50,515 nucleotides of DNA from Rhodoferax sp. (lineage in GTDB: Bacteria > Pseudomonadota > Gammaproteobacteria > Burkholderiales > Burkholderiaceae_C), in the NCBI GenBank assembly GCA_031291305.1, contig JARLJH010000008.1, forward strand, positions 1 through 50,515, given 5' to 3'. The notes below the pieces were generated by a model. The model was given only the letters and a program-made list of their open reading frames with translations, did not search any database and was not told the origin of the DNA. Shown here in pieces: positions 2,391-17,798 of the stretch. The position numbers were made by a program, and so were the translations under genes. The first letter of the stretch is position 1. Every line of letters starts with the position of its first letter.

Positions 2391-3275
2391 TTATTGCTGC
2401 GCCAAACCCGTTTCTGTGTGGCCACCGCCAAGTTCACCCCGTGCCAGTTGCCCAATGGTGTCGTCCCCAAACACCTTGAATCGTCCCATTTTTGGGAGGT
2501 GTTGGCTCGTGATTTCCGTTAGCGACCGCAATCGTCCAGCTTTATCGCCGTACTTCGCAGCCAGCACGGTGTACCGCCCCAGCCATGCCTTACGTACCAG
2601 CCCCCATTTACTATCCGCCTCGCGGTGCAGTTGCAATACCTGGGTCCGGACCCCTGAGAACAATGGCCGCCGGCGCTGGTAAGCCAATGTGCCACGCAGG
2701 CCTTCCAAGTGACCGGCATCATCACGACCGAAATTCAGCTCCTTGACATCGCGCTCAATGGCAGCCAGGACGTGACCGTAGGCGATGGTCGTCATCTTCC
2801 AGGTCCAGGTCGAGCAGTCTTTGATGACCTGTTTTTCCTTCCCGGTCTTGGCATCCATCAGGGTTCGGGCGTCTTTTTTGTGCGCGTACAGCAGCACATA
2901 GTCATCAAATTCGATGTGCCCATTGGCCCGTGGCGCGTGTTTGGCAACATGGGCATCCGGCGACTTTTTGTCCGCCAAGCCCCCATGGCCATCACTGGTC
3001 AGGACCCACCACGCGACATTGCCACTCGTGGTGGCATACGCCACGAAATGAGCCAAGGCCAGACCTTTAGACCGGTCATACGTCCGACCCCGCTCGTCAC
3101 GCAAGACCGGGTACCGGCCAGCCATCTTGGCAGCGAGTGCTGGGAGCTTGGCCGGTGCAATGACACCGCCAATCCAGTGCGGATTGCCGCGCAAGACGAG
3201 GGTTTGTAGGTGCTGCATCAGGACGGTTTTGCCGGTGGGGATGCGCAGGTCGAGGACGGATTGGGTGGTTGTCAT
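2391..3275 (-). CDS. Hypothetical protein, 294 aa
   Basis: A long, well-composed frame I do not recognise. It begins with ATG at 3275 without an obvious Shine-Dalgarno sequence. The protein has a basic middle segment rich in Lys and His (about residues 100-150), aromatic clusters (WWVLTSDGHGGL near residue 90; WTWKMTTIAYGHVL near 160), and a C-terminal region rich in Arg, Leu and Gly. No signal peptide, no membrane helix, no nucleotide-binding loop. Its neighbours are the repeat cluster and the promoter region of the giant RNA, which is transcribed divergently from it. A role in the element's own biology (replication, regulation or RNA binding) is possible but unproven. Confidence 0.65.
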   Translation of the reverse strand: MTTTQSVLDLRIPTGKTVLMQHLQTLVLRGNPHWIGGVIAPAKLPALAAKMAGRYPVLRDERGRTYDRSKGLALAHFVAYATTSGNVAWWVLTSDGHGGLADKKSPDAHVAKHAPRANGHIEFDDYVLLYAHKKDARTLMDAKTGKEKQVIKDCSTWTWKMTTIAYGHVLAAIERDVKELNFGRDDAGHLEGLRGTLAYQRRRPLFSGVRTQVLQLHREADSKWGLVRKAWLGRYTVLAAKYGDKAGRLRSLTEITSQHLPKMGRFKVFGDDTIGQLARGELGGGHTETGLAQQ

Positions 3276-3467: not shown

Positions 3468-3485
3468 CTGGATAGGACCTGTGAT

Positions 3486-3575
3486 GTGCGTGCCAACGCA
3501 TTGAACGGGGCCAGGTGCGCCAACACCCTCAACACTTCTCGAAGTTCACAGGGGCGCGCCAACGCCCCGAACTTC
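3486..3575 (+). other. 5' hairpin triplet with (T/C)GCCAA loops
   Basis: Three successive hairpins expose nearly the same loop: TGCG-TGCCAA-CGCA (3487-3500), GGTG-CGCCAA-CACC (3514-3527), and GGGGCG-CGCCAA-CGCCCC (3551-3568), the last extended by GAAGTTC/GAACTTC (3541-3547 with 3569-3575). Stems differ in sequence while loops are conserved, which points to loop function. Each loop is complementary to a loop in the triplet at 4517-4616. Confidence 0.8.
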
Positions 3576-4516
3576 ATCATCATCTTTTCTTCCGGCGTGA
3601 ACCCAGGTAGTTCCTGGGTGCCACAGCGCGTAGTGCGTCCTCAAACGGGCGCCCGCTACGTGTCGGAAGGGGGGCGGGGAGTAATCCCGACAGCGTAAGC
3701 TGTCGGAGTAATCCCCCGCCTCTACTTCATACGCCCGGGTTGCCGCCCGGGGTGTCAGGCACTGTTGCGCTGAATGCGCTGCTGTGCCGAGACCGTGCGA
3801 TTGGGGAAGGGCTGGCCAGGGGTAATAACCTGTCCAAGGGCTTTGCAGCCTGTGACCCCCGGATTTGTCATCCGGGATGAGCGCCTGATATGCGAGATGA
3901 TTTTTTAAGTCTGTCGGCCCGCTACCCTGCCTCCTGAACAAGGGCAGAGGCGAGACGATTACCGACATGCAGTCCAGCTGGGCGAGGCGAGGCACCGATT
4001 CGGTGTCGAAGTCCGCGACCGTACATGAACCAGGGTCTGAACCTGATGATGGGTACGGGTGGTAGCAGGGGGTGAGATGGGTCGCACCATCACAGCCGTC
4101 GGCATCACTGGGAGCAAAAGCATGTAAAAGCCCGCGAGGGCAATCGGTTGAGTGTGAGCAAGCTAGGGCCTTCAGTGCCTGGAAATTGTGGAAATGAACA
4201 GAGAACAGTGCGATGAGTACCCACCCGCTTAATGGTTTCGGGGTGAGGGAAATCTGGAGACGCGCCAGAAAGCACTGCTGTTCGTGAGCAACTTGCGTTC
4301 TACTTGTTAAGACTTGCATATCGAACCAACACAAAATGGCCCGAGGGGCGTGGAAGTAACTACCACGCTGAACCGGGGGCTATAAGCCAACTGCTGGGGT
4401 TAAGGGCAGGGAGCAATCCCTGGACAACATCCCAAGATTCGCAAGAGTCTGCCTATGCGGTTGAGTGGCCGGCGAGAGCCGAGTCGGTTGGAAAGATGAT
4501 GATTGAAGTGAACTTA

Positions 4517-4616
4517 CCCCTCCTTGGCAGGAGGGGCTTTGGGAGAAGATGCCTTGGCGGGCATCTTTCGAGCCGTGTGAGCGCTTTTATTCGGTGAGCC
4601 AGACTTGGCGGTCTGG
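4517..4616 (+). other. 3' hairpin triplet with TTGGC(A/G) loops
   Basis: CCCCTCC-TTGGCA-GGAGGGG (4517-4536), AGATGCC-TTGGCG-GGCATCT (4547-4566, plus one A-T pair), and CCAGAC-TTGGCG-GTCTGG (4599-4616). The loop set (one TTGGCA, two TTGGCG) is the exact reverse complement of the 5' set (one TGCCAA, two CGCCAA). Confidence 0.8.
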
Positions 4617-4790
4617 TGAGCCCGAGCGTTTGCAGGGTGCGCGGAAATTTGAGGCTTCGCCTCAGGTGAACCGCGGCGATTGGCAAGGAATGGGAGCTAT
4701 CCCTGATTGCGTGATTGCTTGATTCAAACCCCGGAGCTATGGCTTCGGGGTCTATTCAGCGACGCAATTGAACTACTGGCGCAAATGAGG

Positions 4791-4818
4791 AGGCCCCCTG
4801 CAAAGGGGGCTTTTTCTT
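4791..4818 (+). terminator. Intrinsic terminator of the giant RNA
   Basis: GCCCCC (4793-4798) pairs with GGGGGC (4805-4810) around TGCAAA, followed by TTTTTCTTT. It is oriented for plus-strand transcription, although no plus-strand protein gene lies upstream; this is independent evidence for a plus-strand noncoding transcript. It sits 7 bases from the stop codon of the converging reverse transcriptase gene. Confidence 0.85.
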
Positions 4819-4824
4819 TGGCAC

Positions 4825-6591
4825 TCAAGGCGAAACGTGCGATGCACTATAGTTTGCAATCGCCAACGAAATACGTTCAAGTAGCGGATTAAATCCACTG
4901 AAATTAATCTTGTTCGCATGAGCACGAACTATTTGCTCAGCAAATACATGCTTACCGTAGTGCAGACCGACGTCTTTGGTGTTGTTCGATTTATCGAAAG
5001 ACTTCACACCGATTTTCATACTCAGAACCGTTGGTGAATAGAGGTCTTCAATGCACCCCTCGCTCGCCCCAGTCGGGGGAGGGATGCACACGACATAAAG
5101 GTTACTGCCAACCCTGTAAAAGTTTGCCGAGCCGTCTGGTTTAAGGTGTCCTTTATTGGAAATAATGAATTGAATCTTCTTCCATCCAGAGTCCAAATCA
5201 ACCACAATAATCACGGGCTGGCGAGTTGCGGGTATATGAAATTTCTTTGTCTCGCCTTCATATGCCGCGATAAAGGATGCCAAGTTTGGCGCCCCGGCCG
5301 TTAGGCCCATAAGTGCATTGGTACGTCTTTCCACGCACGGGAAAACTCGGACGATTGGGTTGGCGGGAACAGCCGTTGCATCGGCCAATAGTGGGAACAG
5401 GAACGCCTGCTTCTTTATCGCTGCATATAAGTGGACCTTGTCAGTTTTACCCTCAGTCAAGATGACTGGTCGTTCCATCAAGAAGAACTCACGATAGAAC
5501 AAATATTTCCGATACTGCTTTTCTTGACTAGTCAGGTCACATTCTTTGAATGCGGTTTTGTACTTATGGTCATGTGATATCACACCAGCTTTCGGCACCC
5601 CGCCTCGAGCACGGATGTCTACCCAATCAATGAAACCAAGCATTCCTTGAAGTTGCTTCAGGGGGTCAACACTCTTCGTACATTTATTTTCTACCCTGGC
5701 TTGCGCAGCGTTGTCAAGCTTGAATTCTCCCGTGGATACGAGGCTATGCACCATGGCTCGTACTTGCTTTCTATATTCCCTCGTGACGTTGACACGCTTG
5801 TTTACGACCAAACCGGTGACTTCCTGCCTCGACTCCAGGTATTGAAGGCGTGTCTTGTTGGGATTTTCAGCAAATCCAGAGCGAATTAATACCTTCTTAA
5901 GTTTTTCCCCAAGTACCCAGTCATGACTGCCCCCAGGTACTGAATTCCTTGCAACGGCTTCCGGAAATTCATGCTTACGTGTTGAAAAAGTGATGTCATC
6001 CGCATACCTGGAGTATCTCAAACCATATTGATTGGCAACATCAATCAGCTTTAGGTCCATGGAACGCGCCACCATGTTTGCGATAATTGGGCTGCATGGG
6101 GACCCTTGAGGAAGCCCATTGTTGCGACATGCGATTTGTGCTATCAGGGTTGCGACATCCGGGTGTAGTTGGAAGCACCGGTCCTTGATTAGCGTGCCTC
6201 TGACACGTCCGAAATTGATGACTCCAAAGAAGTCCTGAAGGTCAAGATTTAAAACCCACCGCTTATTTCTATGCACTTTTGCATTGGTGATAATGGACCT
6301 GCCCTTGACAAACCCATGCACAAAGGGGGTTTTTCGAATCCCAGTATCATCAAGTTCCTTCAAACAATTGGACAACAAGTTCGTTAAATTTGATTGAAGT
6401 CGTTTGAGTTTTTCAGTTGGGGCGGAAATTGTGCGAGTTCCGCCTGAACGTTTTGAAATTTCAAATTCAAAATACCGTTGACTATCAGTCAGCTTGAACA
6501 GTAGATAAGTTATTCCCTGCGCCTTAAAGTTGAGCAGTTCTGCCAACTCAGCAAGGGTTGTCGCTTCGCGCAGCTTTTGCAACTGAGACAT
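4825..6591 (-). CDS. Retron reverse transcriptase fused to a TOPRIM domain, 588 aa
   Basis: Makes multicopy single-stranded DNA from the adjacent msr-msd RNA; the fused TOPRIM is the probable toxic effector in phage defence. I start at ATG 6591 because the sequence from there (MSQLQKL) begins like retron RTs and 6620-6627 upstream is the a2 repeat; a longer frame to 6687 would overlap the RNA. Visible: retron motif NAKVH (103-107), LDLQDFF (116-121), QGSP (162-165), catalytic YADD (196-199), VTG triplet of the thumb (258-260), then TOPRIM with TEGKTD (E380) and DLDS (D465, D467). All catalytic acids are present. Length matches the RT-TOPRIM fusion of retron Ec67 (about 586 aa). Base composition is visibly more AT-rich than neighbours, a sign of transfer. 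Lies downstream of hsdRMS on the same strand. Confidence 0.93.
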   Translation of the reverse strand: MSQLQKLREATTLAELAELLNFKAQGITYLLFKLTDSQRYFEFEISKRSGGTRTISAPTEKLKRLQSNLTNLLSNCLKELDDTGIRKTPFVHGFVKGRSIITNAKVHRNKRWVLNLDLQDFFGVINFGRVRGTLIKDRCFQLHPDVATLIAQIACRNNGLPQGSPCSPIIANMVARSMDLKLIDVANQYGLRYSRYADDITFSTRKHEFPEAVARNSVPGGSHDWVLGEKLKKVLIRSGFAENPNKTRLQYLESRQEVTGLVVNKRVNVTREYRKQVRAMVHSLVSTGEFKLDNAAQARVENKCTKSVDPLKQLQGMLGFIDWVDIRARGGVPKAGVISHDHKYKTAFKECDLTSQEKQYRKYLFYREFFLMERPVILTEGKTDKVHLYAAIKKQAFLFPLLADATAVPANPIVRVFPCVERRTNALMGLTAGAPNLASFIAAYEGETKKFHIPATRQPVIIVVDLDSGWKKIQFIISNKGHLKPDGSANFYRVGSNLYVVCIPPPTGASEGCIEDLYSPTVLSMKIGVKSFDKSNNTKDVGLHYGKHVFAEQIVRAHANKINFSGFNPLLERISLAIANYSASHVSP

Positions 6592-6616
6592 AGTGCAACA
6601 GTGAATCAAATAAGGA

Positions 6617-6746
6617 TGGCCCCCAGAAACTCTTATGCGATGCAAGACACAGCGCGTAACGTGAGTAACCAGGCGGATAAAGAGCAATCTCTCTACCCGT
6701 TCTTTCCATGCCGCCGAAACAACGGCAAAAATCTATCTGGGGGTCA
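6617..6746 (-). ncRNA. Retron msr-msd RNA
   Basis: Read on the minus strand. CCCCCAGA (6743-6736, a1) pairs with TCTGGGGG (6627-6620, a2); two more pairs outside a mismatch extend this to 6746/6617. Just after a1, UAGAU offers candidate branching guanosines. Next comes the msr hairpin TGCCG-TTGTTTCGG-CGGCA (6727-6709), whose loop TTGTTTCGG is the same as that of the second msr hairpin of retron Ec86 as I recall it. The msd hairpin follows: an 11-bp stem with two G-T wobbles and an ATTG loop (6699-6674). a2 ends 28 bases before the RT start, the expected order a1-msr-msd-a2-ret. The exact branch base and msDNA ends are not fixed by inspection. Confidence 0.85.
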
Positions 6747-6878: not shown

Positions 6879-8507
6879 TTATATGGTCGCAACAGATTGC
6901 TGCTCCACTAATGCTTGGGCGAGTTGGGATTGCCTTTGACGCGCCGAGGCAAGCTGCTGGCGCAGGTCGGTACACCTGCGGCGTAGAAAGGCTACTTGGA
7001 GAAGTATGCGGGACTGTTCGGCGAGTGGAGGGAGTGAGAATGCCAACCGTGAAACTTCAGTGCTGTTAATGTTCTTAACGCCCGATGTTGTTCTTATAGG
7101 AGTTTCAATTTGCGACCTTATTTCCAATGTTTGCATCACCAGAATAAGGTAGCTGGGCTCAATGAATTCACGTTTAAGGCGCAATCTCATCAAATAGCCT
7201 GCAAATGCGAAGCCTTCCGACTCCGCATCAACAATCGCTACACTGCCCACAAGGGAAGCACTTCCATTTGAACGAATGACAAGGATGTCCCCCTTTTCGA
7301 GACATAACTTCACCATTTCACGTTCATCCAGAACACCGAATTTAAGGTCTGCTGTATCAACAGCTCCGCCTTTGATATTGGGTATACGAAGCACCGGTTT
7401 GCCATTCACCTCGTATCCGCATTTGACCGAAGTTCCATAGCGAAGCTCCAGTAAAACGTCCTCCAAGGCAATTCGCGACCAAGTTGCTGGAATCGCGCTT
7501 ATAGATTTCTCTCGGTCACCAATACTCACCGGCACATCTCCAGGTGATTGGGTCGAGAGTAAGCCACGCACCGCGAGTTGGATGATTGTTTGCTCCAGGG
7601 CGTCGATGGCTTCGGGCCGGTCCAGCAGAAGGTCAAAGTGTGCGGCAATTCGTTGCCAGTTCTCTGCAAGTTCCTCTGGCATTGAACTATCAGTAAGCGT
7701 GCCCAGCAGAGCTCTAACGAGCTTGGCGTGCTGCGTGGCTTCAAGCCGGTCTTTGACTTCGAGGGCGTCACACAAACGCATAAGTTCTTCGACGCGGGCG
7801 ACAATGCGGGATTGCTCGACGAGCGGCGGAAGTGGGATTGGGGCTGCGCGTGCGTCTTCCGTACCTAGCCTTGGCATTTTCATGCCATAGCTGCGTACAT
7901 TGACATAGTCCAAAAAACATGGGCTGCTTAATACGATTTTGAAATATTGAGGCACGTAGGGGCCATAGCATCGGAACGGAATGATTTCTGTTGTACAAAC
8001 ACCATCCTCGTCGGCGACCATAACCTTGTTCAGGTATGGCCTCAACTTGCCATACAAGACATCACCTTTAGTAAAGCGATTTTTATCGCTAATCGCCGGG
8101 CGCTCCGCGAAGCGAAATCGTTGAATTAGACGTCCCGATGATTTCTCAATATCTTCCATATCCAAAACCCATGTCTCGGGTTGGATTGCGCTGGCCTTTG
8201 AAGTTGCACCGTAATTGGTGATTTCGCCGAGCTGAGCCCAAAGCCAAGCGCTAGGCAATTCAAACGGCTCTTTAGCATCTGCAAGCCCCGCCACCGGCTT
8301 GACGCGTGCAATCTTGCCCTCTGCATCCAGTCGGCTTTTCTCTGCCTGAATCTTCTTAAGCAACTCGCTCGCAGGCTCGTCATTCGGGTCTTGGGGCACC
8401 AGCTTGCCTTGTACAGCCAGTGTCAAAATCAGTTCGCGTAGTCGCACCACGCCACCGGGTGCCGTGGCAAGCAGGTCCAAATTGGAAAGCAACATACGCG
8501 GACTCAA
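6879..8507 (-). CDS. hsdS: Type I restriction-modification specificity subunit HsdS, 542 aa
   Basis: Directs the type I complex to its bipartite DNA target. Two target-recognition domains are recognisable, each starting with a W-x-x-x-x-L-x-E/D type segment (about residues 95 and 330) and each ending in a proline-rich PLPPLVEQ or SLPPLAEQ motif followed by a coiled-coil conserved region (about 225-270 and 500-530). Two TRDs plus two conserved helices is the full HsdS layout and the length is normal. The start ATG overlaps the end of hsdM by four bases, so the genes are translationally coupled. The retron follows 130 bases after its stop. Confidence 0.92.
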   Translation of the reverse strand: MSPRMLLSNLDLLATAPGGVVRLRELILTLAVQGKLVPQDPNDEPASELLKKIQAEKSRLDAEGKIARVKPVAGLADAKEPFELPSAWLWAQLGEITNYGATSKASAIQPETWVLDMEDIEKSSGRLIQRFRFAERPAISDKNRFTKGDVLYGKLRPYLNKVMVADEDGVCTTEIIPFRCYGPYVPQYFKIVLSSPCFLDYVNVRSYGMKMPRLGTEDARAAPIPLPPLVEQSRIVARVEELMRLCDALEVKDRLEATQHAKLVRALLGTLTDSSMPEELAENWQRIAAHFDLLLDRPEAIDALEQTIIQLAVRGLLSTQSPGDVPVSIGDREKSISAIPATWSRIALEDVLLELRYGTSVKCGYEVNGKPVLRIPNIKGGAVDTADLKFGVLDEREMVKLCLEKGDILVIRSNGSASLVGSVAIVDAESEGFAFAGYLMRLRLKREFIEPSYLILVMQTLEIRSQIETPIRTTSGVKNINSTEVSRLAFSLPPLAEQSRILLQVAFLRRRCTDLRQQLASARQRQSQLAQALVEQQSVATI

Positions 8508-9974
8508 ACGGTGCGTGTGAGCGACTGGGCCAGGATGCCCTTGAGCTGGTTGCGCAATGCCTGGGCCTCACCTTGCAGTCTGGCGTAGTCGGCGAGCAGC
8601 TGTTCCGGGTCATGGCCTTGGACATCGAACACGTGTGGGTTCTTCTGGTCCAGGTTGAAGTTGGCTGCGCGTACTTGGTCGATGCTGACCTTCCAGGCGA
8701 ACTCGCTCTCCACGCGGTCGGCGAAGCCATCGGCCTCCGAGCCCCACCAAGCTTTTTCAACATCGAATTCTTCAATCCGTATGGGCTTGGTCTTGTTGTA
8801 GTTCTTGACGCCGGCAGGGTACTGGTGCTCGTAATACCAGATGTCCCTGGTGGGCTCTCCCTTGGTGAAGAACAGCAGGTTGGTCTTGATGCCGGTGTAG
8901 GGGCTGAACACGCCATTGGGCAGGCGAATGATGGTGTGCAGACTGCACTCCTGCAACAATTGCTCTTTGATACGCGTCTTGACGCCTTCGCCAAACAGCG
9001 TGCCATCCGGCAGGACCAAGGCGGCGCGGCCATGGTTCTTGAGCAAATGCTTGATGAGCACCAAAAACAGGTCCGCGGTTTCTTTGGTCCGAACGTCCGC
9101 CGGAAAGTTGTTTTCCGTACCAGGCTCCTCCACGCCCCCAAAGGGCGGGTTGGTAATGATGACATCCACCCGGTCGGCAGCGCCGTAGTCGCGCAATGGG
9201 CGGGTCAGGGTGTTGTCATGGGCAATCTGGCTGGGAACTTCCACACCATGCAGCATCATGTTCGTGGTGCAAAGCATGTGAGGGAGCTGCTTTTTTTCAA
9301 CACCCCGGACGCTGCGCTGCAAGGTGCCCTGGTCGGCCTCGTTCTTGACCTGTTTGCGGATGTGCTCCAGGGTGCAGACTAAGAAACCTCCGGTACCGCA
9401 GGCGGGGGTCGAGCACCACCTCACCCAATTTGGGATTGACCATGTCCACCATGAACTGGGTGACAGCGCGCGGTGTGTAAAACTCACCTGCGTTGCCGGC
9501 AGACTGCAGGTCTTTGAGTATTTTCTCGTACAGGTCATTGAACTGGTGGCGTTCCGCCTGTCGGTTGAAGTCGATGGCGTTGAGCTTGTTGATGACCTGG
9601 CGCAGCAGCTGGCCGCTCTTCATGTAATTGAAGGCATCTTCAAACACGCTGCGAACCACATAACCGCGCGGGTTGCGTTCGGCGTCCCCAGCGATGGTCT
9701 TGAGCCTGGGAAAGAGTTGAGCATTGACAAAGTCAAGCAGGGCATCTCCCGTGATGCCTTCAGCATCGGCGGCCCAATTACGCCAGCGCAGGTGTTCGGG
9801 GATAGGGCTCCTATAGTTGTCCCGGGTGATTTCCAGCTCTTCTTCCTGGGCGTCGAACACTTTGAGGAACAGCAGCCAAGTGAGCTGGGAGATGCGCTGT
9901 GCATCGCCGTCCACGCCACTGTCCTGGCGCATGATGTCTTGAATGGATTTGATAACGGAGGAAATATTTGACAT
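8504..9974 (-). pseudogene. hsdM: Type I methyltransferase HsdM, frameshifted
   Basis: N6-adenine methyltransferase subunit of the type I system. The N-terminal part (9974 to about 9410) matches HsdM through FYTPRAVTQFMVDMVNPKLGEV and VLDP. The rest, from ACGTGGF to the end at 8504, continues in another frame, including the catalytic NPPF in ITNPPFGG. The break lies in a run of five G residues at 9404-9408 (C on the coding strand), exactly inside SAM-binding motif I, DPACGTGG. Removing one base restores a protein of about 489 aa, normal for HsdM. Either a real inactivating indel, a sequencing error, or slippage. Loss of methylation with an intact hsdR would normally be harmful, which makes the point worth checking. 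Confidence 0.88.
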
Positions 9975-9999
9975 GCAGACGGTCTAACGAAGAAAGAAA

Positions 10000-12474
10000 T
10001 TATGCGGAGCGAGCTGAATAAAGCTCTGTCTCCAGTAGTTGTAAGGCTTGAAGGTATTGTGGGCGACCACCGAAACTGCGAACCAGTTCGACCGGGGTGC
10101 CCAAGTCGTTGAGTGGTGGCACGCTGAGCACATCCATGCTTTCGATGGTCTGCACGCCCTGGTCTGCATACTTGTCAATCAAGGCATCCAGCACTCTGCG
10201 AGCTACAGGGCCATATTGGGCAAATACGTTGCGCCTCTTGACCCGATTGGCCCGCTCACGCCGGGTCAGCGGTGGCATGTTCCACGCCACATGCAGCAGC
10301 AAATCAAAGGGGTCCAGGTCTTTGCCAACTTCCTGTGCCAAGGCATCCAGCAGCACCCCCTGCGCTTCCAACTCCTGCAGCAGGGCCGCCTTGCGACCGG
10401 TGTCGTTCCAGGCCTGCAGGAACTGGTCCAGTGAGCTGTATTTGGCCATGATGTTGATGCGGGTGTAGTCGCGCAGGCTCTCGGTAATGAGTTTGCCTTG
10501 GGCGTTGAGGTACTGCACTCGCTCCCGTGCCACGGACACGTTGACGTTGCCGCCAACGATATAACGCTTGATTTCGAAGCTGCCCCCTTCACCGGGGCCA
10601 GCGGTTGTCGGTTCATTGGGGATGCCTTCGCCCGGGCCATCAACAATCCCTGCGCCGGCGTCACCGAAGGTGCCCACCTCCGGCGGCGGCTCCGGGGGGG
10701 CCACCGGCTCATCCCCCTTGGGCTCGTAGACCTGTACCGGCTCGCCGTCGAAGTTCTTGTCGGCGAAGATGTCTGTGGCGCGTTTAAAGTCGATGATGGT
10801 GAACCAGGTTTTGCCCAAATCCTCACGCAACCGGGTGCCGCGGCCGATGATTTGCTTGAACAGCGTCATGGACTTGATGTTCTGGTCCAGCACGATGAGC
10901 TTGCAGGTCTGGGCGTCCACACCGGTGCTCATAAGCTTGGACGTGGTCGCGATGACCGGGTAATCCTTGGCTGGGTCAATGAAGTTGTCCAGCTCCATCT
11001 TTCCTTCCAGGTTGTCACCGGTGATTTGCACCACGTATTTGGGATGGTCCTTGCAGATATCAGCATTGGCGTTGGACAGGGCCTGGCGCATGCGGCAGGC
11101 ATGGTCAATGTCTTCACAGAAGACGATGGTTTTGTCGAAGCGGTTGGTGGCCTTGAGGTACTCGGTGATTTTGGCCGCCACCACCTCATCGCGCCGCTCC
11201 AACACCAGCTTGCGGTTCATGTCGGTGGCGTTGTAAATGCGGTCTTCAATGACATTGCCCCGTTTGTCGGTCATGCCCTCGGTGGGGCGCCATCCGAAGG
11301 TGTCCTTGTCCAGGTCTACCCGGATGACCTTGTAGGGGGCCAGATAGCCGTCTTCAATGCCCTGGCGTAGGGTGTACTGGTACACCGGCTCGCCAAAGTA
11401 TTCGGTGTTGGAAATTTCTTTGGTTTCCTTGGGCGTGGCGGTGAGACCAATGTGGGTGGCGGACTTGAAATAGGTCAGGATTTCGCGCCACGCGGAGTCT
11501 TCGTCTGCGCTGCCCCGGTGGCACTCGTCGACCACGATGAGGTCGAAGAAGTCTGGCGAGAACTGTTTGTAGATGTTCTGCTCTTCCTCCGTACCGGACA
11601 CGGCTTGGTACAGGGAGAGGTAAATCTCATATGACTTGTCGACCAGCTTGGTGGTTTTGTTGACGGCGACATCGAGCTCTTCGACAAACTGCTGGCCCGT
11701 GGCGGCATCCACGCGCTCCACGCCCTCGGCGTTGGGGCTGAGCTTGGCCATGGCGCCCTTAAATGGACGGAAGTCATTGACCATGGTCTGGTCAATCAGA
11801 ATATTGCGGTCGGCCAGGAACAGAATGCGCTTTTTGGCACCGCTTTTCCAGAGCCGCCAGATGATTTGGAACGCGGTATAGGTTTTACCAGTGCCGGTGG
11901 CCATGACCAGCAGGATGCGCTGCTGCCCCTTGGCAATCGCCTGCACCGTGCCATTGATGGCGTTCATCTGGTAGTAACGGGGCGTCTTGCTCGGGGCATA
12001 GGGGTACTCGGTGACCTTGCGTACGTCGAGGCTCCAGCCCTTCCAGGTGCAGTAGCGGTCCCAGAGGTCATCGGGCGTGGGAAATTGTTCCAGCGAGAGG
12101 TTGGTTTCCAGCGCGCCGCCGGCCATTGTGGCGTCGCGGAACACAAAACCATCGCCATTGCTGGAAATCGAGAATGGGATGTCGAGCATCTCGGCGTAGT
12201 TGATGGCCTGGGCCATGCCGGCGCCCACCGCGTGGTTGTTGTCCTTGGCCTCGATGACCACGAGCGGGATGCTGGTCTTGAAGAACAGGACGTAGTCGGC
12301 GCGCAGGATGGATTTCTTGTCGCGCGATGCGTGATTGCCACGAACGACGACCCGCCCGGGGCGCAGCGTGTACTCCCGGTATATCTGTTCAATGGTGTCC
12401 CAGCCCGCCTGCTGAATCGCCGGCGTGATGAACTTTTCGCAAATGTCGGCTTCTGAGAGCTGCTTTTTATCCAC
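10000..12474 (-). CDS. hsdR: Type I restriction endonuclease subunit HsdR, EcoEI-like, 824 aa
   Basis: Motor and nuclease subunit that translocates and cuts unmethylated DNA. N-terminal nuclease motif: D60 and E75-x-K77 (VVIEAK). Then a superfamily 2 helicase: Walker A GTGKT (194-198), DECH box (316-319), LTATP, and IGRGTRLRED in the second RecA domain. A Pro/Gly-rich linker (around PPEPPPEVG) leads to a helical C-terminal domain for HsdM contact. Length and order fit the EcoEI R family. Start MDKKQLSEADICEKF is typical. All catalytic motifs are intact although hsdM is not. It is first of the hsdR-hsdM-hsdS set, 292 bases after the primase-like gene. Confidence 0.93.
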   Translation of the reverse strand: MDKKQLSEADICEKFITPAIQQAGWDTIEQIYREYTLRPGRVVVRGNHASRDKKSILRADYVLFFKTSIPLVVIEAKDNNHAVGAGMAQAINYAEMLDIPFSISSNGDGFVFRDATMAGGALETNLSLEQFPTPDDLWDRYCTWKGWSLDVRKVTEYPYAPSKTPRYYQMNAINGTVQAIAKGQQRILLVMATGTGKTYTAFQIIWRLWKSGAKKRILFLADRNILIDQTMVNDFRPFKGAMAKLSPNAEGVERVDAATGQQFVEELDVAVNKTTKLVDKSYEIYLSLYQAVSGTEEEQNIYKQFSPDFFDLIVVDECHRGSADEDSAWREILTYFKSATHIGLTATPKETKEISNTEYFGEPVYQYTLRQGIEDGYLAPYKVIRVDLDKDTFGWRPTEGMTDKRGNVIEDRIYNATDMNRKLVLERRDEVVAAKITEYLKATNRFDKTIVFCEDIDHACRMRQALSNANADICKDHPKYVVQITGDNLEGKMELDNFIDPAKDYPVIATTSKLMSTGVDAQTCKLIVLDQNIKSMTLFKQIIGRGTRLREDLGKTWFTIIDFKRATDIFADKNFDGEPVQVYEPKGDEPVAPPEPPPEVGTFGDAGAGIVDGPGEGIPNEPTTAGPGEGGSFEIKRYIVGGNVNVSVARERVQYLNAQGKLITESLRDYTRINIMAKYSSLDQFLQAWNDTGRKAALLQELEAQGVLLDALAQEVGKDLDPFDLLLHVAWNMPPLTRRERANRVKRRNVFAQYGPVARRVLDALIDKYADQGVQTIESMDVLSVPPLNDLGTPVELVRSFGGRPQYLQALQLLETELYSARSA

Positions 12475-15948: not shown

Positions 15949-17550
15949 TTAAGCGGCAAGGCGGGGGCGAAAGGCGATGACGTTGTTGGCTGTCGCTTGG
16001 GGTGCCGGCAAAGGACCGGCCGCTACTGTATCCAACGGGGCTTGAGTATTGATGACTTCCTTCATGGTCAATGAGCTGCCATTCTTCAAGCGACGTTGAC
16101 CACGATGAATTACCGTCTGACTCTGGTCGGCAAAGGCCGCGTCCAGCCGCTTGGCCAGGCTAGGCGTGCAAAGGTGGGTGTAGCGAAGCAGCATGCGGGT
16201 GTCGCGGTGCCCGCTGAACGCCTGCAGGTCAACCAACGAAAACCCGCCCGGCAGTTTGCCTCCTGCATCGGCCACCCGAGAAATCGCCTCATGCCTGAGG
16301 TCATGCACGTGCAGCTCGTCAACGTCCACCAGGCCAGCTTGCTTGCAGATGCGGTCCCAGGCGTTGCGCAGGGTGTCCAAGGTGATGGAAAACACCCTTT
16401 CAGCGTTGCGGGGAAGCTGCTGGAGCAGGGCGATGATGTCTTTGCGCAAGGGCAATTTGCGGGGCCGGCCATTCTTGGTTTCGGGAATGAACGCGGTCTG
16501 ATTGTCGAAGTCGATGTTGTCCCAGGTGAGAGACAGCGTTTCGCTGCGACGCGCACCGGTCATCAACTGGAACTGAATGAAGGTCTCCATCCAGGGAACA
16601 TGGGTGTAACTGGCTTGAGCCTCTTCACGGTGCTTGATGCGAGCTGCCTTGACGATGTTTTTGCGCTGGTAAGTGGTGGGAGACTGGCAGGAAGCAGCGC
16701 GTTCTTCGCCCGTGAGTTCTTCCAGCCGCAGTTCGATGGACTGCTGCGCATCCTCGTCGTAAGCGGCGCTGAGCAGTCGCTGCTCTTCATCAGCCTTAAG
16801 GCGGCGGTCGCGCTCGTTGAAGTACTTGGGGCGCCGTACACCGTCCATCGGGCTCTTGGCGACCGGGATGCGCCAGGTATCGATGGCCAGGCGGCACACT
16901 GCTGAAAAAATGTCAACCTCCCGGTCCACCGATGAAGCCGCAACGGCCTGGCAGCGGTCATCGATGTACTCATTGAAGTCTTCGGGCATCAGGGCGCCAA
17001 AGGACTTGCGAACAAAGCACGAGGTCACGCTCGGCGTGCGAATGCCTTTGCCAGAGGGTTTGGCAAATTTCTTGCTGGCATGGCTTGGGTGGGGGTTTTT
17101 GTGGTCGGCATAGGCTTTCGCGATGTCGACGCGCGCCAGGCCGGCATCTTCCAGGATGGCGTTGATGAGGTAGCCTTCGATTTCGAAGCCCTTGTGACGC
17201 GGTGAGATTTCGCGCAAGTAACGCGCCAGCAGGTCGGCGAAGGTTACCCGGAAACCTTGGGCATAGTCGATGAACAGGCTACGGTTTCGTTCTTCTTCAA
17301 TTTTCTGTTTGATGCCAACCGCTTCGCCCTCGGTCGACGCGTACAGGCATTGTTTCGGGTGGGCCCCCTCGCGGATGCGGATAGCAAAACTGTCGTCGGT
17401 GCGCGACAGCTTGGGCTTGTAGCCGCGGGAGTCCAAGTCAGCGAGATAGGCTTTGAGCGCGGGTTCGCGGTTGTAAGCGAAGGTTTGGGTGAGTTCGGGG
17501 GCCTTGTGTACCTCGACGACAAAACGGGACCGATTTTCGATAGATGCCAT
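15949..17550 (-). CDS. int: Tyrosine recombinase (integrase), 533 aa
   Basis: Catalyses site-specific integration and excision of the element. The start at 17550 has GGAG upstream. The N-terminal 230 residues contain arm-binding and core-binding segments. Catalytic residues: R334 (TGARRSE), H416-x-x-R419 (HDLRH), H448 (SGHRDT) and nucleophile Y457 (LLRYTHL). The catalytic domain has an insertion of about 40 residues rich in charged amino acids (about 265-315) between its first helices, making the protein longer than the usual 400 residues. A C-terminal tail of about 60 residues follows the active site. It is the gene closest to tRNA-Pro, which supports that tRNA as the integration site. Confidence 0.93.
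   Translation of the reverse strand: MASIENRSRFVVEVHKAPELTQTFAYNREPALKAYLADLDSRGYKPKLSRTDDSFAIRIREGAHPKQCLYASTEGEAVGIKQKIEEERNRSLFIDYAQGFRVTFADLLARYLREISPRHKGFEIEGYLINAILEDAGLARVDIAKAYADHKNPHPSHASKKFAKPSGKGIRTPSVTSCFVRKSFGALMPEDFNEYIDDRCQAVAASSVDREVDIFSAVCRLAIDTWRIPVAKSPMDGVRRPKYFNERDRRLKADEEQRLLSAAYDEDAQQSIELRLEELTGEERAASCQSPTTYQRKNIVKAARIKHREEAQASYTHVPWMETFIQFQLMTGARRSETLSLTWDNIDFDNQTAFIPETKNGRPRKLPLRKDIIALLQQLPRNAERVFSITLDTLRNAWDRICKQAGLVDVDELHVHDLRHEAISRVADAGGKLPGGFSLVDLQAFSGHRDTRMLLRYTHLCTPSLAKRLDAAFADQSQTVIHRGQRRLKNGSSLTMKEVINTQAPLDTVAAGPLPAPQATANNVIAFRPRLAA

Positions 17551-17721: not shown

Positions 17722-17798
<77 letters not shown>

Follow-up and report, generated by a model that had tools for sequence, protein, structure and literature searches.

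Our analysis indicates that positions 3474-4818 on the plus strand of the window (the whole 50,515-nucleotide stretch of Rhodoferax sp. DNA analysed here) very probably encode a circularly permuted (CP) group II ribozyme, with P1-type and 3' hairpins and a P2-D2 contact as intramolecular staples, a placement that follows the text description of the class in PMC8637638 and our own covariance model, R1. The class, earlier named T-large RNA, was described by Roth, Weinberg, Vanderschuren, Murdock and Breaker in 2021 (PMC8637638). According to that text, its domains run in the order D5-D6-D1-D2-D3-D4 with GUGYG and AY inside and reversed, its RNAs yield branched and circular products in vitro, and the P1 loop pairs with the 3' end. 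The preliminary description of the region had considered a new class of RNA; the region is assigned instead to these published ribozymes. The features of the RNA and of its partner gene are as follows.

2391..3275, minus strand: acpG, 294 aa, divergent from the RNA and homologous to Thermus AcpG
3474..4818, plus strand: RNA placed as a CP group II ribozyme, supported by homologues (3474 is the limit of the region, not a mapped transcription start)
3482..3503, plus strand: 5' hairpin 1, P1-type, loop UGCCAA at 3491-3496
3514..3527, plus strand: 5' hairpin 2, P1-type, loop CGCCAA at 3518-3523
3551..3568, plus strand: 5' hairpin 3, P1-type, loop CGCCAA at 3557-3562
3601..3619, plus strand: P2 hairpin, loop UAGUU, complementary to AACUA at 4358-4362
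3626..3663, plus strand: domain 5, with CGC triad at 3627-3629 including a G.U, five pairs and a 2-nt bulge at 3653-3654 (own alignment)
3666..3728, plus strand: domain 6, with presumed branch point A3724, bulged
3729..3730, plus strand: presumed 3' splice site AU (motif only)
3731..3794, plus strand: presumed excised circle of 64 nt, between the presumed splice sites
3795..3799, plus strand: presumed 5' splice site GUGCG (motif only)
4165..4193, plus strand: strongly conserved block AGGGCC...AGUGCCUG...UGGAA, from the alignment, used as search pattern
4347..4369, plus strand: D2-like hairpin, loop AAGUAACUA, which holds AACUA at 4358-4362
4517..4536, plus strand: 3' hairpin 1, loop UUGGCA at 4524-4529
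4545..4568, plus strand: 3' hairpin 2, loop UUGGCG at 4554-4559
4598..4617, plus strand: 3' hairpin 3, loop UUGGCG at 4605-4610
about 4790..4819, plus strand: intrinsic terminator, read from the sequence, which ends the region

The plus-strand region is a structured non-coding RNA, packed with stems and with a terminator at its 3' end. The predicted fold energy was -625 kcal/mol on the plus strand versus -525 on the minus strand. No long ORF was present among the plus-strand ORFs inside 3474-4818. The longest ORF, of 262 aa on the minus strand (3546-4334), corresponded to pieces of 90-159 aa in G054, a whole-length homologue from another species of the genus with 91% identity over 1343 nt, and this break-up agrees with the earlier view that the region holds no credible protein.

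Domains 5 and 6 were aligned over window positions 3621-3729 in 17 of 24 RNAs; two of the others were truncated and five were omitted, either because their limits were not found by rule (G054, PolarRGN and L233) or because they were too divergent (Gallio1 and Methylotenera). In this alignment 95.1% of the cells were paired and 21 of the 36 pairs showed changes on both sides. Only 0 or 1 of 500 shuffles equalled the real alignment on each of five measures, and slid versions were far worse, a comparison in which the real version has an advantage, since the structure was drawn from the same 17 sequences. The triad with its G.U was identical in all 17, followed by five pairs, a 2-nt bulge in the 3' strand and an upper stem capped by a small loop, and the column of A3724 was likewise invariant (17/17). 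The layout of the first helix matches group II domain 5, and that of the second matches domain 6. In our own reading the triad aligns as CGC in the betaproteobacterial RNAs, and AGC can be recognised in G512 and Azotobacter.

The covariance model R1, built from this alignment, found matches in 9 of 399 genomes of the order. Three of these (L280, L282 and L283) were D5-D6 lying directly after an ORF with reverse transcriptase motifs, as judged from our own reading of the translations. At a fourth, L281, the script found no reverse transcriptase ORF; its upstream DNA resembles that of L280 by eye, and it is likely an intron. AcpG and the loops were both absent from L280-L283. As R1 matches D5-D6 behind reverse transcriptase ORFs, a model made from the present RNAs recognises group II D5-D6. 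The remaining five matches were the window, G063, L277, L278 and L279, the latter three of which carry AcpG and the loops. In the window, D5-D6 (3626-3728) precede the body of the RNA, which is marked by the D2-like hairpin at 4347-4369; this leading position of D5-D6 makes the RNA circularly permuted. A canonical group II intron was rejected, as D5-D6 come first and no long plus-strand ORF lies inside 3474-4818.

R1 also reached the published carriers of the class. The strongest R1 match to either strand of Thermus pTT8 (17.1 bits, E 0.01, weak) lay in the gap from which the published acpG is divergently encoded, and on pPNAP05, a plasmid named as a CP group II carrier in PMC8637638, there was one match (24.5 bits, E 0.0015, weak). 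No Rfam 15 family matched the window RNA or two other RNAs that were tried. The suggested kinship with GOLLD, ROOL and OLE thus found no Rfam model match, and the HEARO and group II models gave none either; GOLLD, ROOL, OLE and other Rfam families were rejected, the sub-threshold matches being to the terminator and to single hairpins. R1 also finds CP group II members missed by Rfam.

Our analysis also identified the partner protein. When neighbouring ORFs were compared all against all, one protein family recurred no more than 9.5 kb from the RNA, at 21 of 24 loci: directly divergent in 15, upstream behind other genes in five (one of them on the strand of the RNA) and downstream in one. The three loci without it were L235, where the contig ends on that side, L240, with about 6 kb of upstream sequence, and L233, with full flanks. 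The protein divergent from the CP group II gap of pTT8 matched the family profile (hmmsearch E 4e-18, one-sequence search) and was aligned to the family by hhalign with a probability of 97.9%. This protein, AcpG (TTHC007), shares WTW and PMFSGV motifs with the window family, but only 22% identity in the aligned part. Since it matches the profile, the window protein is, by sequence comparison, AcpG. Searches of Pfam and NCBIfam with all 21 members gave no credible match, only two single Pfam matches at E 0.08. The predicted structure reached a pLDDT of 90.9 and a pTM of 0.84. In fold searches the best E was 0.17 against the PDB and 0.005 against a viral library, with a TM (query length) of at most 0.21 among the 50 best rows of each. 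A confidently predicted AcpG model that lacks a fold match in these libraries is new.

In PMC8637638 acpG is described as a frequent, non-universal neighbour of the CP group II RNA, and among the literature matches listed AcpG is used in this sense in that paper only. Nine AcpG copies were found in 369 genomes of the class. Seven of them, the window included, had an R1 match (E <=0.02) in divergent position. A further copy, G364 C56, had a weak R1 match (E 0.75) at the right place with matching loops, and copy C21 of the same genome had no RNA found by R1 or by loops. The idea that the AcpG copies of G364 and G512 lack an RNA was overturned by R1 and by ACCA/UGGU loops, which a search for GCCA/UGGC had missed. 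Two Azotobacter plasmids, reached through AcpG, hold the RNA in a 1.23-kb gap (R1 E 0.008 and 0.01). No RNA was seen at the AcpG copies of Gluconobacter (19 of 44 kb read) and of a Novacetimonas plasmid. RNAs with no AcpG nearby include those of L233 and of pPNAP05 (within 50 of 59 kb read).

Putative splice sites follow domain 6. AU was found at +5/+6 from the branch A in 17 of the 20 RNAs with a readable motif (32 RNAs in all), and 25 of 32 RNAs had a GUGYG motif no more than 220 nt past D6, with none found in the other seven; more distant GUGYG motifs in G556, G559 and G588 may be due to chance. By analogy with five relatives tested in PMC8637638, the bulged A3724 would attack the RNA's own 5' splice site, and the attack should leave a branched RNA of T shape and set free a circle of some 64 nt. 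The predicted circle (3731-3794) falls within the range of 32-86 nt given for the published circles in PMC8637638.

Of 100 genomes searched, three had the RNA: the window's own, G054 and G063, the last with a distant homologue and from another family. A search around G063 matched 14 of 150 genomes at E <=0.1, 12 of these short and weak, and brought in G134 at 77% identity. A pattern scan of a collection of species genomes gave 36 stretches, comprising 20 homologues and 16 chance matches. The 20 homologous loci were all from Betaproteobacteria, including the genera Paraburkholderia, Cupriavidus, Polaromonas, Hydrogenophaga, Janthinobacterium, Herminiimonas, Castellaniella, Rhodocyclus, Zoogloea, Vogesella, Chromobacterium, Gallionella and Methylotenera. 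A DNA search of the whole class matched 47 of 274 genomes at E <=0.1, and among the loci fetched only the window's own had the loops. A blastn search of the region against phages, plasmids and E. coli gave no match. Two pattern scans of viral contigs, one with at least 120 matches listed, gave no homologue by blastn at E 0.05, and a third gave six matches, none with the loops. The consensus of ten full-length relatives of the window's subgroup contained 378 pairs, 154 with compensatory change, 46 altered on one side and 40 with at least three misfits. The core pattern was present as a single copy in 22 of 23 genomes searched and as two copies in one.

All six hairpins of the preliminary description are present in the window, and each 5' loop is complementary to a 3' loop. 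In 2000 dinucleotide shuffles the named loops occurred on average 0.003 (5') and 0.004 (3') times, no shuffle contained three of them on one side, and none combined a 5' with a 3' loop. When any 6-nt loop on a stem of at least four pairs was admitted, with an exact 6-nt complement required among the 3' loops, the window had three such pairs and 1000 dinucleotide shuffles had a mean of 0.009 and a maximum of one, so that none reached three.

We then surveyed 32 RNAs for hairpins with RCCA loops upstream of D5 and with UGGY loops 560-1000 nt downstream of D6. In the 31 RNAs with both sides, 51 of 61 5' loops were matched by an exact 5-nt complement within the same RNA, against a mean of 37.3 when RNAs were permuted (0 of 10000 permutations reached 51). 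With wobble allowed the count was 53 versus 44.9 (0/10000), and with identical sets collapsed to 20 it was 31 of 39 versus 21.7, with 2 of 10000 permutations as good; one Azotobacter copy was dropped from these tests and the kinship of the RNAs is ignored in them. Selecting loops by RCCA and UGGY presets three of the five pairs (CC/GG and A/U), so the evidence from this test concerns the outer and the R/Y positions. Covariation among homologues supports the loop-loop pairing of 5' and 3' hairpins. ACCA with UGGU loops replace GCCA/UGGC in G364, G512 and G591, and the clearest two-sided core changes are those of G364 (CACCA with UGGUG, AACCA with UGGUU) and G512 (AACCA with UGGUU, UACCA with UGGUA). 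One 5' loop each was unmatched in G054, PolarRGN, Cupriavidus, Parab_silv and G848, and Parab_lyc, G591 and the second Azotobacter copy (Azoto2) had no exact match under the loop rule. In pTT8 the sides are exchanged, a 5' loop GUGGCG standing opposite a 3' loop CGCCAC.

The preliminary description had also noted that the varying T/A position changes in step between the two sides. This holds within the window, and keyed changes occur in more distant relatives, but it does not hold in the nearest relative, G054, which has UGCCAA with three UUGGCG loops and so a U.G wobble. At L241 of Methylotenera versatilis (about 9770-9860, minus strand), TTGGCGCTCCCC upstream of D5 is complementary to GGGGAGCGCCAA, so that a longer duplex could hide the 5' loop. 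Two or three staple hairpins per side were present in most of the betaproteobacterial RNAs read. In PMC8637638 one P1-3' pseudoknot of this kind is proposed, which in the present RNAs is multiplied.

A second long-range contact, the P2-D2 loop pseudoknot, is also described for CP group II RNAs in PMC8637638. It varies in step, being UAGUU/AACUA in the window and UACCA/UGGUA in Hydrogenophaga. With strict pairs, the summed complementary run over the 20 of 32 RNAs that were readable was 69 versus 54.2 expected (4 of 5000 permutations as good); the other 12 were unreadable by rule, and the automatic picks in G054, Cupriavidus, UBA7395 and G642 look wrong. With wobble the signal was weak (74 versus 68.3, 204/5000). 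In PMC8637638, processing of a Thermus RNA without P2 was abolished at 20 mM Mg2+ and restored at 100 mM, which its authors read as stabilisation of the fold by P2-D2.

These contacts suggest how the permuted RNA might assemble. D5-D6 lead, followed by the two presumed splice sites, in inverted order, and by the presumed D1-D4 body, an arrangement expected to sever the usual covalent connection of D4 with D5. Of the two free ends, one would carry the P1-type hairpins, which lie 5' of P2 and D5, and the other the 3' hairpins, which lie downstream of a D1-D3-like body. With hairpins on both ends, kissing would restore the D4-D5 neighbourhood, alongside P2-D2, and the staples would return the catalytic D5-D6 to the D1-D4 body. 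Because the loops lie on either side of the D4/D5 breakpoint, contacts within one molecule are favoured. The kissing loops are real, flank the permutation breakpoint and are read as intramolecular staples. Such sharply defined loop keys offer a handle on folding and on assembly in cis or in trans.

Many of the RNAs carry one and the same hexamer in two or three loops on each side, which leaves the choice of partner ambiguous and could allow contacts between separate RNAs. That the loop pairs of a CP group II ribozyme link two copies into a dimer, besides or instead of folding within one molecule, is nevertheless an unlikely reading in our judgement, as the effect of removing P2 from the Thermus RNA (PMC8637638) would, by analogy, point to stabilisation of a fold. 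A degenerate, inactive remnant of a group II intron might be suspected from the departure of the triad from AGC, from the lack of a maturase inside and from the relatives without GUGYG. We consider this highly improbable: the compensatory changes in 154 of 378 pairs and the D5-D6 statistics show a fold under selection across many genera, and the core pattern, found once in 22 of 23 genomes and twice in one, is unlike that of a spreading intron. Even less credible is that the region represents a new giant ornate RNA class, multimeric through kissing loops in the manner of GOLLD or ROOL. Its size, loop-loop contacts, location on an island and lack of an Rfam match would suit such an RNA, and GOLLD and ROOL do use interchain kissing loops according to the text of PMC12286853; D5-D6, the splice-site motifs and AcpG, however, belong to a known ribozyme class, and the loops flank a breakpoint where contacts within the molecule suffice.

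The RNA is large (about 1340 nt) and lies within an island. Its neighbours in the window are:

4825..6687, minus strand: retron type I-C (Ec67-like) RT-Toprim, neighbouring cargo, convergent with the RNA and not part of the ribozyme
6879..12474, minus strand: type I restriction-modification genes hsdS, hsdM and hsdR, neighbouring cargo
15949..17550, minus strand: tyrosine integrase, beside tRNA-Pro
17722..17798, minus strand: tRNA-Pro, adjoining the integrase

The retron RT-Toprim gene ends just past the terminator of the ribozyme. The hsdM gene (8504-9974, minus strand) is split over two frames, with matches at 8639-9406 and 9405-9554, and therefore looks broken. The tRNA-Pro beside the integrase may be one edge of the island; no second copy of any 14-mer of this tRNA was found in the window.

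At 14 other loci, 20 neighbour proteins, hand-picked from 245 ORFs, were searched against Pfam, and 10 of them also with PADLOC. Defence-like matches comprised GmrSD/HEC-06, type I and type IIG restriction proteins with an Eco57I-type methylase, a second retron-like reverse transcriptase, Gabija-like GajA/GajB and PDC-S68, an OLD/AriA-like ATPase and perhaps a NERD nuclease. Non-defence matches were MauJ, a PAPS reductase, a replicase of family PF03090, AAA_25, a metallo-hydrolase and an integrase-like protein, and four proteins matched no family at all. In Cupriavidus, Paraburkholderia silviterrae and UBA5582, acpG and the RNA are separated by defence-type genes, and pPNAP05 carries type I restriction-modification genes too. 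In 9 of 31 genomes (one by a weak match) a gene with an N6-methylase domain was no more than 10 kb from the RNA, versus 0.48 expected at random positions (Poisson P 3e-9), where the baseline is random positions and not islands, in which such genes cluster, and positions were compared by eye. This occurrence of N6-methylase genes near the RNA is new and shows location near defence genes, not function. None of the literature titles and abstract beginnings listed tied the CP group II RNA to defence islands.

Three further observations concern single loci. Right after the RNA of Rhodocyclus tenuis lies a second reverse transcriptase (L243:10293-11471, minus strand), whose best PADLOC match is RT_V. 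A 1418-aa protein follows the RNA in a Herminiimonas MAG (L234:10117-14370, plus strand) and has no Pfam or PADLOC match at E 0.001. Just after the RNA of G364 (L260, minus strand), a 36-nt direct repeat occurs three times with spacers of about 40 nt and looks CRISPR-like.

The RNA and acpG occur in islands and plasmids, frequently near anti-phage defence genes, and most likely serve the element and not the host. A more specific proposal, which we regard as possible but rather doubtful, is that the CP group II RNA and AcpG form a core module of defence-carrying islands and plasmids that targets competitors or serves the cargo. The branched, D5-bearing product, guided by exon-binding sites and AcpG, might attack competing RNA or DNA; alternatively, the module might serve the acquisition or upkeep of adjacent cargo, which at some loci lies between acpG and the RNA. 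The recurrent setting near defence genes gives a handle on this role through the biology of islands and plasmids. That the RNA instead belongs to a neighbouring retron or restriction-modification system, as the convergent retron RT gene ending just beyond the terminator might suggest, deserves almost no credence, and the link to the retron was rejected, since only one of the 20 scanned neighbour proteins (14 other loci, Pfam) was a reverse transcriptase and the cargo differs between loci.

Compared with known systems, the window RNA resembles GOLLD and ROOL, as described in the text of PMC12286853, in being large and structured, with loop-loop contacts and a location on mobile elements. Those, however, are phage or prophage RNAs, often near tRNAs, that form cages, and their Rfam models do not match the window. 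With ordinary group II introns it shares the D5-D6 that R1 matched in three introns with reverse transcriptase ORFs and in a fourth likely one; here, in contrast, the domain order is permuted, no maturase lies inside, and the splice sites are internal and reversed. The published CP group II RNAs average near 900 nt, versus about 1340 nt in the window, and their triad is given as AGC, versus CGC. The text of PMC8637638 makes no mention of a multiplied P1-type staple, of which the window has three hairpins per side and most of the betaproteobacterial RNAs read two or three, or of neighbouring defence genes such as those found here. In common with that class, the window has D5-D6 at the 5' end, a bulged A, GUGYG and AY inside and the P2-D2 contact, and the present loci share with it the P1-3' pairing, acpG nearby and an occurrence on both plasmids and chromosomes.
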